The notes under the pieces are model-generated. The model ran no database searches. It saw only the letters and a program-made list of their open reading frames with translations, and was not told where the DNA came from. DNA of 64,000 nucleotides, from assembly GCA_902555695.1 (NCBI GenBank), contig CACDTV010000003.1:1-64000 (forward strand), read 5' to 3'. Shown piece by piece: positions 1,776-34,067 of this stretch. How positions within the stretch are numbered: position 1 is the first letter of the stretch; every line of letters begins with the position of its first letter. A program made the position numbers and the translations under genes. The DNA comes from an uncultured Alphaproteobacteria bacterium. GTDB lineage: Bacteria > Pseudomonadota > Alphaproteobacteria > HIMB59.

Positions 1776-2402
1776 ATGAATGAAGTTGTAATGGCTTTAT
1801 TATCCGGATGGATAATATTTTATTTTGCTGTATTTTTGCCAGGACCTAACACGTTTTTTGTAGCATCTGTTGGAATTAGTGGACAGAAAAAACAAATTTG
1901 GGGTGCTGCAGTTGGTACCGCTATAGGTTCTTTTACTTGGTGCTTACTTGCTACAACAGGTATTTCTTTTCTAATTTCAAATTTAATGGGTTGGGGTTTT
2001 ATTGTTTTAAAGATCTTAGCTAGTCTTTATATGATTTATTTAGCATATCAAATTGGCAGCCAATACTTTAGCTCTGAAAATCAACTCATAAAACTATCCA
2101 ATGAAAGAAATTTTTTAAACAGTATGAAGAAAGCAATAATTGTTGCTTATACCAATCCCAAAGCTTTCGCATTTTGGTCTGCTCTAGCAACTTTACAATT
2201 CAGTGAAAACCTAAATTTTAGTATCGCTCTAATTTTTGCAACAGGTAGTTTTTTTATTTCAGCAATGAATTATTCAATTATCGGCCACTTTTTTGGTATA
2301 AAAAAGTTTTCAAATTACTTCAACAGACCTAAAAATATATTCAATTTAATATTTGCTGGACTTTTTATATTTGTAGCTATTGAAATTTGGGTGTTAGGCT
2401 AG
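1776..2402 (+). CDS. LysE/RhtB family translocator
   Basis: N-terminal FAVFLPGPNTFFVASVGISGQKKQIWGAAVGTAIGS, multiple TM segments. Confidence 0.85.
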   Translation: MNEVVMALLSGWIIFYFAVFLPGPNTFFVASVGISGQKKQIWGAAVGTAIGSFTWCLLATTGISFLISNLMGWGFIVLKILASLYMIYLAYQIGSQYFSSENQLIKLSNERNFLNSMKKAIIVAYTNPKAFAFWSALATLQFSENLNFSIALIFATGSFFISAMNYSIIGHFFGIKKFSNYFNRPKNIFNLIFAGLFIFVAIEIWVLG

Positions 2403-2404
2403 GC

Positions 2405-2428
2405 AAAAAGCCCTAGATAGGGCTTTTT
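2405..2428. terminator. intrinsic terminator hairpin, probably bidirectional
   Basis: AAAAAGCCCTA-GA-TAGGGCTTTTT, perfect 11-nt dyad, A-run on one side and T-run on the other, right after the LysE stop. Confidence 0.85.
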
Positions 2429-2591
2429 AAAATTTTCTAATAAATCTTCTATCTATCTCTTTTTGTCTTCTTTCAAGATCAATCATGTCGATAGCTTGAG
2501 ATAAATATACCTCTTCTTTGTATGACTTTGATTTTTGGTCATTTTTTCCATTAATAATTATTTTTCTAATAGATTTAAATAGATTGCTCAT
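2427..2591 (-). CDS. small DUF1127-like protein (54 aa), absent from ORF track
   Basis: Hand translation: MSNLFKSIRKIIINGKNDQKSKSYKEEVYLSQAIDMIDLERRQKEIDRRFIRKF*. The IDMIDLERRQKEIDRRF tail resembles DUF1127. Confidence 0.6.
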   Translation of the reverse strand: MSNLFKSIRKIIINGKNDQKSKSYKEEVYLSQAIDMIDLERRQKEIDRRFIRKF

Positions 2592-2770
2592 CAGGCAGCC
2601 TCTTTTAAGCTATTTGGAAATGACTGATTTCTTTGATACTCGGAGTAAGCCCATTGCCAATCAGAGCCATATTCAACCTTACAAAAATTTATAATACTGT
2701 CTTCTTTTTTAGTAAATAAAGATAACCAGAATTTTAAAGATCTTTCTGTAAATCCAAAAATTTTATTCAT
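2591..2770 (-). CDS. small hypothetical protein (59 aa), overlaps the DUF1127-like ORF start
   Basis: Hand translation: MNKIFGFTERSLKFWLSLFTKKEDSIINFCKVEYGSDWQWAYSEYQRNQSFPNSLKEAA*. TGATG-type overlap with the next ORF. Confidence 0.5.
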   Translation of the reverse strand: MNKIFGFTERSLKFWLSLFTKKEDSIINFCKVEYGSDWQWAYSEYQRNQSFPNSLKEAA

Positions 2771-2930
2771 AATTTTTTTTCCTTTCTTACATATATATAG
2801 TTTTAAAAAGAAGTTTTACTTTTGCTAAATATAGACAGCTGATGTCTATTTATGAGACTTCAAACAAATTCATTAAATATTTTTAATTTGCATGTAGTCT
2901 AAGTAACAAAAAAAATGATAAATTTATGAC

Positions 2931-4007
2931 ATGGATTATAAAATTTTTGATGGCCATAATGATGTATTATTTAGACTATTTTTAAAGAACAAACCTGACT
3001 CCTATCTTGATTTTATCGATGGAGATAATGAGGGACATTTAGATCTTCCTCGAATGAACCAAGCTAATTTTAAAGGAGGTTTATGCGCCATATATGTTCC
3101 TACCCCAGAACAAGATATCTCTGATTCTGATAAGTTGGTCAACTATAAAGATATGGAGCAAGATGAGTATTTATTACCACTTCCAAGGCCCGTAAACGTA
3201 AACGATGCATTACCAGTTGTTTTAAATCAATTGTCTATCCTTTCAAAAATTGAAAGAAACTCAAAAAATAAAGTTAAGATTTGTTTATCTGGCAAGGATT
3301 TGGAAACCTCGTTTAAACATGATGACCAATTATCTGTAGTGATGCATATAGAGGGCGCAGAATGTATAGATAAAAATTTTTATAATCTCGAAACTTTATT
3401 TCGAGCTGGTCTTAGATCAATTGGGCCAGTTTGGTCAAGACCTACTATTTTTGCAGAGGGCGTTCCCTTTGCTTTTCCAACTTCACCAGATATTGGAGAT
3501 GGTTTAACCGATATAGGAATAGAACTAATAAAAAATTGTAATTCACTAAATATGTTAATTGACACCTCTCATTTAAATGAAAAAGGCTTTTGGGATATAG
3601 CAAAATATTCAAATTCGCCCCTAGTAGCCACGCATAGCAATGCTCATCAGATTTGCCCACATTCTAGAAACCTTACAAATAAGCAATTAGATGCAATCAA
3701 AGAAACTCAAGGGATGGTTGGAGTTAACTTTGCCCCAGCTTTTTTAAGGAAAGATGGAAAAATGGTTTCTGATACAGATTTACAAATAATAGTTGATCAT
3801 TTTAAGTACCTTATTGACTATTTGGGAGATGATAAAGTTGGATTTGGCTCAGATTTTGACGGTGCAATGATGCCAAAAGATCTAGATAGTGTTTTAGGTA
3901 TGCATAAATTAATCGATCTATTAATTTCACAGGGTTTTAATGAAAACTTAATGATTAAAATTTCACATTTAAATTGGATTAATCTTTTAAAAAGAGTTCT
4001 AAATTAA
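2931..4007 (+). CDS. membrane dipeptidase (peptidase M19 family)
   Basis: FDGHNDVLFRL, HIEGAECI, LIDTSHLNEKGFWDIAKYSNSPLVATHSNAHQICPHSRNL, VGFGSDFDGA. Confidence 0.92.
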   Translation: MDYKIFDGHNDVLFRLFLKNKPDSYLDFIDGDNEGHLDLPRMNQANFKGGLCAIYVPTPEQDISDSDKLVNYKDMEQDEYLLPLPRPVNVNDALPVVLNQLSILSKIERNSKNKVKICLSGKDLETSFKHDDQLSVVMHIEGAECIDKNFYNLETLFRAGLRSIGPVWSRPTIFAEGVPFAFPTSPDIGDGLTDIGIELIKNCNSLNMLIDTSHLNEKGFWDIAKYSNSPLVATHSNAHQICPHSRNLTNKQLDAIKETQGMVGVNFAPAFLRKDGKMVSDTDLQIIVDHFKYLIDYLGDDKVGFGSDFDGAMMPKDLDSVLGMHKLIDLLISQGFNENLMIKISHLNWINLLKRVLN

Positions 4008-5010: not shown

Positions 5011-5720
5011 TTTGTAAATAAAATCAATACTCCTATCAAAGTGATAGCAATAATAATAAGTTTTTTAAATAGGATTTCCGGTATTTGTTTATGTATAAAA
5101 TAACCCAGCCAAACACTTAACATAACTAAAAGAGCTATTGGATAGTATATTTTCACTATCTCTAAATAGCTTCCTCCCAAAAACATAAAAAATATTGCTC
5201 TCAAAGAGTTTATAATAAAAAAATATCCAGCCATAGTTGATCGCAACTCTTGTTTTGAGGAGAAATAATCTTTATACCCCATTAATACAAATGGTCCTCC
5301 AATAGTATAAATTCCTTGAATAAATCCACCTAGAATTACAAAAAAATTTTTCAAGAATTGAGGAAACCTGATATCAGGAAAGAATAAGTTGAAACATCCA
5401 TAAATAATTAAAATTATTGCAAATATTTTTATTAAAATATCTGATGCAAAATAACTGATAAAATATGTTCCAATTAATGCACCAGGAATTGTATAAATTA
5501 AAATTTTGATCAGATGATTTAAAGAGACATATTTGTATGATTGAATTAAAACAGCTAAACCGGAAGATAGCCCAACAATCATTGCAAGCTTTAACAAAGA
5601 ATTAAAGTCAAAGAAAAATCCACTAATTCCCAGAAAGATTATCGTACCACCAAAACCAAAAATACTTTCAATGGCGTATGCAAAACAAGCTATTAATGCA
5701 ATAGTTGAAAAATTTGGCAT
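5007..5720 (-). CDS. TauE/SafE family permease
   Basis: Repeated TM helices with FGFGGTIIFLG and GALIGTYF-type motifs and GGFIQGIYTIGGPFVLM. Confidence 0.8.
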   Translation of the reverse strand: MPNFSTIALIACFAYAIESIFGFGGTIIFLGISGFFFDFNSLLKLAMIVGLSSGLAVLIQSYKYVSLNHLIKILIYTIPGALIGTYFISYFASDILIKIFAIILIIYGCFNLFFPDIRFPQFLKNFFVILGGFIQGIYTIGGPFVLMGYKDYFSSKQELRSTMAGYFFIINSLRAIFFMFLGGSYLEIVKIYYPIALLVMLSVWLGYFIHKQIPEILFKKLIIIAITLIGVLILFTK

Positions 5721-5766
5721 TTAATTCTATTTAACAATTTAGAATGTTTTATGTTAAAAGTAATCT

Positions 5767-6348
5767 ATGTATTTAAAAGTAATATTTTCTTTTATTGTAA
5801 TATTATTTCTTAAAACGAATTTATTGTATGCCCTTTCTCAAGATATTTCTTTGACAATCATGGTTCGTTCTACATTGGGAACAGAATATATTCTAGCTAA
5901 AAGTATTTGCAAAGTATTGGACAGGGAACTTGAAATATCTCATAGTTATGGTGGCTCCAACACATTAGAATGCAATACACGCCTCGATGATAGCGTTGAT
6001 GAAATAATTAAAAAAATTGAACAAAATCAATTTCAATATGCAATTATTAAAAAATCAGATTTACTCAATCGTCCCTCTAATTTATCGCTTCGTTCAATTT
6101 TAAATTTTCCCGCAGATAATGATTATGTTTTTATTTCAAACCAGAATGTAGATCCTAATGTGATTAAGGATATAAACTTTGGAATTATGAATCATTTGCT
6201 TGAGTTTCGCTATCTTCATAAATCTTTTTTTGAATTTTCGGAAAATAATTTAATTGTTAAAGAAAAAATACCATTACACTTAGGGACTTTAAAATTTAGT
6301 GATGAGTGGAGTAGTGGTAAAAGAAGAAGGTTTACAGAGGTAGACTAA
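5767..6348 (+). CDS. secreted/periplasmic protein, possible short TAXI-like solute-binding protein
   Basis: N-terminal signal peptide-like segment, then LTIMVRSTLGTEYILAKSICKVL...EIIKKIEQNQFQYAIIKKSDLL; family assignment tentative. Confidence 0.4.
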   Translation: MYLKVIFSFIVILFLKTNLLYALSQDISLTIMVRSTLGTEYILAKSICKVLDRELEISHSYGGSNTLECNTRLDDSVDEIIKKIEQNQFQYAIIKKSDLLNRPSNLSLRSILNFPADNDYVFISNQNVDPNVIKDINFGIMNHLLEFRYLHKSFFEFSENNLIVKEKIPLHLGTLKFSDEWSSGKRRRFTEVD

Positions 6349-32305: not shown

Positions 32306-33046
32306 ATGGCAGGACATTCAAAATTTAAAAATATTCAATATCGTAAAGGTGCTCAGGACAAAAAAAGAGCAAAACAATTTGCCAAAATAGGAAGAGAAAT
32401 TCAAATAGCCGTGAAGATTGGAGGAACTGACCCAGAGTCCAATCCAAGATTGAGACTAGCAATAACAAATGCTCGAAGTGTAAATATGCCAAAGGATAAT
32501 GTGGATAGAGCTATTAATAAAAATAATTCTGAAGCTTCTGATTATTCAGAAGTTCGCTATGAGGGGTATGGTCCATTTGGAACAGCTTTTATAGTTGAGG
32601 CTTTAACTGATAATAAAAATAGAACAGCTTCAGAAATTAGATCTATTTTCTCAAAGAATGGGGGGAATTTGGGTGAGACAGGAAGTGTGAGTTTTAATTT
32701 TAATAAAGTAGGAGAAATACAAATCAAAAAAGAAATAGATGATAGTGCACTGGAGGATTTACTTGACCATGGTTTAGAGGATTACAACACAGATGACGAT
32801 GTAACATATCTTTATTCTTCCTTTGAGGAATTAGCATCTTTTGAGAAAATACTAGTAGATAAAAACTTTGATATTGAAAGTGCAAATATTATTTGGAAGC
32901 CAAATTTAACTGTAAAAATTGAAAAAAAGGAAGATCTTGACAAGCTTATTAGATTAAATGAAGAGTTAGAGGATAACGATGATGTTCAAAATTGTTTCTC
33001 AAATCTTGATTTTGATAGTGAACTTTTAGAGGTTAATAATGCCTGA
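32306..33046 (+). CDS. yebC: YebC/PmpR family protein
   Basis: MAGHSKFKNIQYRKGAQDKKRAKQFAKIGREIQIAVK; SVNMPKDNVDRAI; YEGYGPFGTAFIVEALTDNKNRTASEIRSIFSKNGGNLGETGSV. Confidence 0.97.
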   Translation: MAGHSKFKNIQYRKGAQDKKRAKQFAKIGREIQIAVKIGGTDPESNPRLRLAITNARSVNMPKDNVDRAINKNNSEASDYSEVRYEGYGPFGTAFIVEALTDNKNRTASEIRSIFSKNGGNLGETGSVSFNFNKVGEIQIKKEIDDSALEDLLDHGLEDYNTDDDVTYLYSSFEELASFEKILVDKNFDIESANIIWKPNLTVKIEKKEDLDKLIRLNEELEDNDDVQNCFSNLDFDSELLEVNNA

Positions 33047-33365
33047 TAAAGCTTGGAAAAATAGGGAAAGACTTGTAGCAAAGTTTTTTGGAGGTATGAG
33101 AAATGCCCTTAGTGGAATTAATTCAAAAGTTACTCATTCAGATGTAATTCACGATAAATTATTCATTGAGTGTAAATTAAGAGCTAAACATTCAGCTATT
33201 AAATTATGGGATGATACAAAATCTTTAGCAGACAAGGAAAAAAAGACCCCAGTCATTGCATTATGTGAAAAAAATAGACCTGGTTTTTGGATAATGGTAC
33301 ATTCAGATGATTTTGAGGAAGTCTCTAAAGAACTTAAAAATAAAAATATAATTGATGAAGAATAA
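33039..33365 (+). CDS. small putative PDDEXK-like nuclease
   Basis: 108 aa; NRERLVAKFFGGMRNALSG...SDVIHDKLFIECKLRAKHSAIKLWDDTKSLADKEKKTPVIALCEKNRPGFWIMV; D-x(n)-E-x-K arrangement. Confidence 0.5.
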   Translation: MPDKAWKNRERLVAKFFGGMRNALSGINSKVTHSDVIHDKLFIECKLRAKHSAIKLWDDTKSLADKEKKTPVIALCEKNRPGFWIMVHSDDFEEVSKELKNKNIIDEE

Positions 33366-33368
33366 TTA

Positions 33369-34067
33369 ATGGAAGAAGTAGTCAACTTAGCATCCCTTGA
33401 AGGTTCGGTAGATTTCTCAATGATGGGAATGTTTCTAAAATCTGACTGGGTTGTAAAATTTGTAATAATATTGCTAGTGATTTTTTCAATTCAATCTTGG
33501 AAGACAATTATTCAAAAAATTTTGTTAATAAATAAACTTAAGAAAATATCTAAAAAATTTGAGAACCATTTTTGGTCTGGTGTGTCTTTAGATGAACTAT
33601 ACAAACAAATTGACGAATTTGATCAAGAAAGTTTCTCAAATATATTTAGAAATATTATGAATGAATATGAAAAATCACGAATTCAGAAAAATAAAATAGA
33701 CTCAGCTTTCATTCAAAGACTTTACACCTCTCTTGATTTAAGTATTGCTGTTGAAGATACAAATTTAAATAAAGGATTGTCTTTTTTGGCATCCTCTGGA
33801 TCTGTAGCACCTTTTATAGGATTATTTGGAACAGTTTGGGGAATCATGAATAGTTTTCAAGCAATAGCAATTGCACAAAACACTAATCTCGCTGTAGTTG
33901 CACCTGGTATAGCAGAGGCTTTATTTGTAACTGCTTTGGGCCTTTTCGTTGCTATCCCCTCAACCGCTTACTACAACCTCATAACTTCTAAAATTGATAA
34001 CTATTTGTCAGAGGCTGAGAGTTTTGGGAAGGATTTAGTTAATATAATTTCACGCCAAGTTAAATAA
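33369..34067 (+). CDS. tolQ: TolQ
   Basis: SGSVAPFIGLFGTVWGIMNSFQAIAIAQNTNLAVVAPGIAEALFVTALGLFVAIPSTAYYN. Confidence 0.96.
   Translation: MEEVVNLASLEGSVDFSMMGMFLKSDWVVKFVIILLVIFSIQSWKTIIQKILLINKLKKISKKFENHFWSGVSLDELYKQIDEFDQESFSNIFRNIMNEYEKSRIQKNKIDSAFIQRLYTSLDLSIAVEDTNLNKGLSFLASSGSVAPFIGLFGTVWGIMNSFQAIAIAQNTNLAVVAPGIAEALFVTALGLFVAIPSTAYYNLITSKIDNYLSEAESFGKDLVNIISRQVK

Follow-up and report, generated by a model that had tools for sequence, protein, structure and literature searches.

The gene between yebC and tolQ

The window, by which we mean the whole 64,000-nucleotide stretch of DNA that was analyzed, comes from the genome (1.08 Mb, 71% complete) of an uncultured alphaproteobacterium of the order HIMB59, which is the same as AEGEAN-169 of the marine literature (PMC10308909, PMC10734472), a common and streamlined group of surface-ocean bacteria. 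On its forward strand, yebC (positions 32,306 to 33,046) is followed by an ORF of 108 amino acids with an ATG start (33,039 to 33,365), which shares 8 nt with yebC and ends 3 nt before tolQ (33,369 to 34,067), such that the three genes are packed like those of a single operon. Pfam confirmed the identities of the neighbors ymdB, yebC (TACO1/YebC) and tolQ (MotA_ExbB), and the list of ORFs places tolR, a TolA-like gene, tolB and pal downstream of tolQ. The layout given in an earlier note on this DNA, including the 8-nt overlap and the lack of ruvCAB and ybgC in the yebC–tolQ gap, thus proved accurate. Its premise that the gap is the customary site of ruvCAB(-ybgC) is borne out in other Alphaproteobacteria, in which the order is either yebC-ruvC-ruvA-ruvB-ybgC-tolQ (genome G300) or yebC, a divergent ORF and ruvC-ruvA-ruvB-tolQ (G371).

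An open frame of 108 codons has a chance probability of about 1e-4 at 29.7% G+C, and the G+C values at the three codon positions (41/31/17%) are as for coding sequence; together with conservation far beyond the species, these values exclude a chance frame. Among 100 relatives, the named ones being single-cell genomes of uncultured marine Alphaproteobacteria and "Pelagibacteraceae", 89 carry the ORF, as do all 20 of those that are at least 90% complete. Its position is kept in 79 of 80 named loci, with yebC directly upstream in all 80 and tolQ directly downstream in 79, so the gene is conserved in both presence and place. In one contig (CACKTS010000014.1, positions 2118 to 3023 of locus L102), the resolvase frame stays open and merges in phase with a pyrE-like phosphoribosyltransferase (total length 301 aa) that replaces tolQ; the junction is probably that of a chimeric single-cell assembly, and we set it aside for that reason. 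The gene is under purifying selection, with a median dN/dS of 0.047 within the window's own family (f1), 0.037 within the order's other family (f2), and 0.047 among the copies found in phages.

Family, predicted fold and active site

The window protein matched PHROG 2002, annotated "Holliday junction resolvase", with E=1.9e-9 (residues 3–103 of 108 on 16–121 of 130), and in profile searches the same family was matched by all 52 aligned bacterial and phage members, 17 of which also matched PHROG 244 (RusA-like resolvase). No significant match was found in Pfam or NCBIfam, nor any sequence match to a solved structure in the PDB. The gathering score of the Hjc family (PF01870) was reached by none of these proteins, the window protein having no match and two of the 52 members matching with a best E of 0.15. 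Weak matches of the ORF product to DDE transposase, BcfB, RanBP2 and TPR were taken as chance.

An AlphaFold2 model of the window protein, built on an alignment of the family, has a pLDDT of 83.3 and consists, in order, of a helix (5–17), strands near 20, near 36 and at 41–48, a helix (59–66), strands at 70–77 and 84–86, and a final helix (89–107). A model of a phage homologue (L162), built on a different alignment, has a pLDDT of 85, and both contain the alpha-beta-beta-beta-alpha-beta core of PDDEXK nucleases. When searched against the PDB with Foldseek, the ten best neighbors of the window model were all archaeal Hjc-type resolvases (top hit 1gef, probability 0.90), and the 12 best neighbors of the phage model were Hjc chains (E 0.009–0.05, probability up to 0.98); the E-values are weak (at best 0.12 for the window model and 0.009 for L162), and TM-scores lie at 0.5–0.56. 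Viral structural neighbors include proteins annotated as Holliday junction resolvases. The nuclease fold that the earlier note had suspected is therefore predicted in two models, both with Hjc-type neighbors.

Across 36 members, including the most divergent phage ones, the residues E10, R21, L24, S25, G26, N28, T32, D35, H38, E44 and K46 are invariant, and the series E10...R21...SG...D35...E44-x-K46, along with L24 and H38, is also invariant in the alignment of 52. E10 (codon at 33,066 to 33,068, forward strand, as for all codons given here) is an acidic residue of the nuclease core that lies in helix alpha1; the R21-x-x-L24-S25-G26 segment (33,099 to 33,116) supplies an arginine and a Ser-Gly pair; D35 (33,141 to 33,143), a likely metal ligand, precedes the ExK strand in both models; and E44-C45-K46 (33,168 to 33,176) forms the E-x-K motif on the strand at 41–48. 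Together, D35, E44 and K46 fit the D...(E/D)-x-K metal-site pattern of PDDEXK enzymes. The proposal that the segment DKLFIECKLR holds this core was right with respect to E44 and K46, but the aspartate of the motif is the invariant D35 and not the variable D39 within HDKLFIECK. The N-terminal stretch, previously thought of as a possible DNA binder, is instead helix alpha1 of the nuclease fold, the helix that carries E10.

The order E...R..SG...D...ExK is also that of Hjc, in which an arginine and an SG pair presumably correspond to R21 and S25-G26. The archaeal Hjc/Hje enzymes (PF01870) thus resemble the ORF product in predicted core and residue order and provide its nearest PDB structures, but the ORF product lacks a significant sequence match to them (the best E in the family being the 0.15 given above), belongs to bacteria and viruses rather than archaea, and has a shorter D-to-E spacing (9 residues, as compared to about 13 in Pyrococcus Hjc). 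The phage resolvases of PHROG 2002 are similar in size and in their full-length profile match but are found in phages, whereas the ORF has become fixed on the chromosome throughout a bacterial order, as a core gene at the ruvCAB locus. With RuvC (PF02075), whose fold is RNase H-like, the ORF shares its place in the operon and presumably its cellular task; however, the ORF product has no Pfam match, its predicted fold is unrelated, it has no RuvAB partner, and a single 108-aa gene stands in place of three. RecU of Firmicutes, which works with RuvAB, and RusA of lambdoid prophages are precedents for bacterial resolvases other than RuvC, but RuvAB is absent from the lineage bearing the ORF, and RusA differs in fold.

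Distribution of the gene and absence of RuvCAB

RuvABC, the standard machinery that moves and cuts crossed DNA in recombination, is generally regarded as almost universal among Proteobacteria. By profile search, RuvC was detected neither in the window's own genome nor in any of the 100 relatives, which include the 20 that are at least 90% complete and a genome of the same genus as the window (G029), 99% complete in one contig of 1,410,127 bp. RuvA_N was likewise detected in none of the 100, and RuvB_C in none of 16 mostly near-complete genomes, G029 among them, so the search for ruvC and ruvAB elsewhere in the genome, which the earlier note had proposed, returned neither. Matches to RuvB_N did occur in relatives, in frames of about 420, 540 and 815 aa, but they scored at most 32 bits and lacked RuvB_C; because a true alphaproteobacterial RuvB (that of G371) scores 266 bits, we regard them as other AAA proteins. 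The searches for RuvC, RuvA and RuvB were positive in control genomes, E. coli and Caulobacter among them. Within the set of 16 genomes, RecA was present in all, RecG in 14 and RuvX (YqgF) in 13, and the RusA profile matched in none. One genome of a further family, f25 (G428, estimated contamination 6%), has two full-length recA matches, in C5 and C19.

In a sample of 385 Alphaproteobacteria genomes drawn evenly across the class, the ORF occurs in nine, which belong to HIMB59 and to f25. RuvC was found in 353 of the 385, that is, in none of the nine genomes with the ORF and in 353 of the 376 others (Fisher 6e-11, uncorrected for kinship); given the kinship among genomes, this mutual exclusion reflects no more than one or two independent events. 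The f25 locus reads ymdB-yebC-[resolvase gene]-tolQ-tolR-tolA-tolB-pal, the same place as in HIMB59, and in a tree of the neighboring genes f25 comes out as the sister group of HIMB59 with a support of 84, which is not decisive. The remaining 23 genomes, among them the complete 1.2-Mb genome G196 (family f99), have neither a detected RuvC nor the ORF, and loss of RuvC thus does not require this gene.

Phage homologues and a probable exchange at the ruvCAB locus

Marine podophages represented by IMG/VR contigs carry copies of the resolvase that are mostly 55–77% identical to the window protein. The gene for the large terminase subunit, TerL, lies directly downstream of the resolvase in 69 of 91 phage contigs; in most of the others, TerL lies no more than about 1 kb away, the contig breaks off, or TerL is undetected in divergent members. 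None of the 91 contigs contains yebC, tolQ or tolB. The terminase of the resolvase-bearing phages is at 77% to TerL of Pelagibacter phage EXVC032P Baldr, and Baldr itself has an unrelated 108-aa ORF (L170, positions 2844 to 3170) where its kin have the resolvase. More distant copies (43–47% identity) occur in Bacteroides phages, and in Bacteroides phage BS162P1 a resolvase-like domain, which shares 45% identity with the window protein across 93 residues, is fused to the C-terminal end of an HNH homing endonuclease resembling I-HmuI (WAX08862.1; L052, positions 5323 to 6315). Two IMG/VR sequences, L197 and L284, are divergent phage members, the former being 161 aa long with a long charged C-terminal tail. 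Scans for distant phage homologues with L198 and L197 as queries added few members, and plasmid sequences yielded no homologue.

We consider it probable (roughly 0.8) that a phage-type resolvase of Hjc fold replaced RuvC, and with it RuvA and RuvB, in situ at the yebC-ruvCAB-tolQ locus of HIMB59. The earlier note had offered as alternatives a substitute resolvase or a nuclease of phage origin that became fixed in a core operon; a member of a phage-type family in the ruvCAB slot is probably both, with its activity predicted from family and fold. The product would be a PDDEXK endonuclease of the PHROG 2002 family that is small, depends on metal and probably forms a dimer. Joint molecules would be made by RecA and their branches moved or regressed by RecG in place of RuvAB; a dimer of the resolvase would recognize the shape of the four-way junction and introduce two paired nicks, one by each active site (E10, D35, E44 and K46). 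Such cleavage may suffice to make the protein the cell's resolvase. The phage homologue would remove branches from replicated DNA immediately before packaging by the terminase, a role that fits the place of its gene directly before terL.

Two other functions deserve weighing. The protein could be a structure-selective PDDEXK nuclease that trims flaps, forks or mismatches, with junctions left to RuvX or avoided through RecG and topoisomerase. RuvX and RecG are present in most of the genomes surveyed, and RuvX could share the work; moreover, some Alphaproteobacteria seem to live with neither RuvC nor the ORF. RuvX accompanies RuvC in most bacteria, however, and so does not explain the swap, and a shared function is indicated by the Hjc-type fold, by the precision of the exchange in situ and by the fact that the ORF and RuvC exclude each other. 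We therefore hold this reading to be quite unlikely, although the typically lower junction specificity of phage resolvases compared with cellular ones (PMC3864405) speaks in its favor. Far less probable still is a phage-related nuclease serving in defense or superinfection exclusion, for example by cutting incoming branched phage DNA, that came to lie in the ruvCAB slot by coincidence: phages exert pressure on HIMB59 populations (PMC10734472), and close relatives of the gene occur in marine phages, but such a nuclease would not tell self from phage DNA. Defense genes are usually patchy, whereas this gene is present at one locus in 20 of 20 near-complete genomes with a dN/dS of about 0.04.

As to origin, the bacterial copies form three groups (f1, f2 and f25) that lie within the diversity of phage copies and are interleaved with them, and a single clade of all bacterial copies is rejected (p-AU 0.0017). 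With some 100 columns and long branches, the tree is suggestive only. Transfer from phage to bacterium is favored by the wider spread of the family in phages, which includes the Bacteroides phages and the divergent L197, L198, L284 and L286, as against two lineages in 385 bacterial genomes. The opposite course, in which an old cellular resolvase was acquired by marine podophages beside their terminase genes, appears unlikely overall; for the f1/f2 part of the tree, a single host lineage could have passed the gene on to phages at a later time, since the phage clade L162–L168 is sister to the f2 copies (support 98/91) and f1 and f2 as one clade are not rejected (p-AU 0.377).

Phage resolvases of the PDDEXK type were already known, as were bacterial resolvases other than RuvC. 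Within the open-licence literature that was searched, we found neither a report of RuvABC loss or of a phage resolvase in HIMB59/AEGEAN-169, although reports elsewhere are possible, nor a case of the whole RuvCAB block being exchanged in place for one phage-type gene across an order. Tentatively, and at somewhat less than even odds, the HIMB59 order and a second family, probably its sister, run chromosomal recombination on a phage packaging-type resolvase of Hjc fold together with RecG and without RuvAB, the slot having been captured more than once or the gene still being exchanged with phages, such that hosts and phages would share one pool of resolvases. The order-wide swap of three genes for a single gene of about 100 codons would provide a natural case in which to ask whether the RuvAB motor is dispensable when the resolvase is less choosy, and it also bears on how recombination is maintained in streamlined ocean bacteria. 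It would be a case in which a core DNA-repair function was taken over by a non-homologous gene of phage type, close copies of which still circulate in phages.
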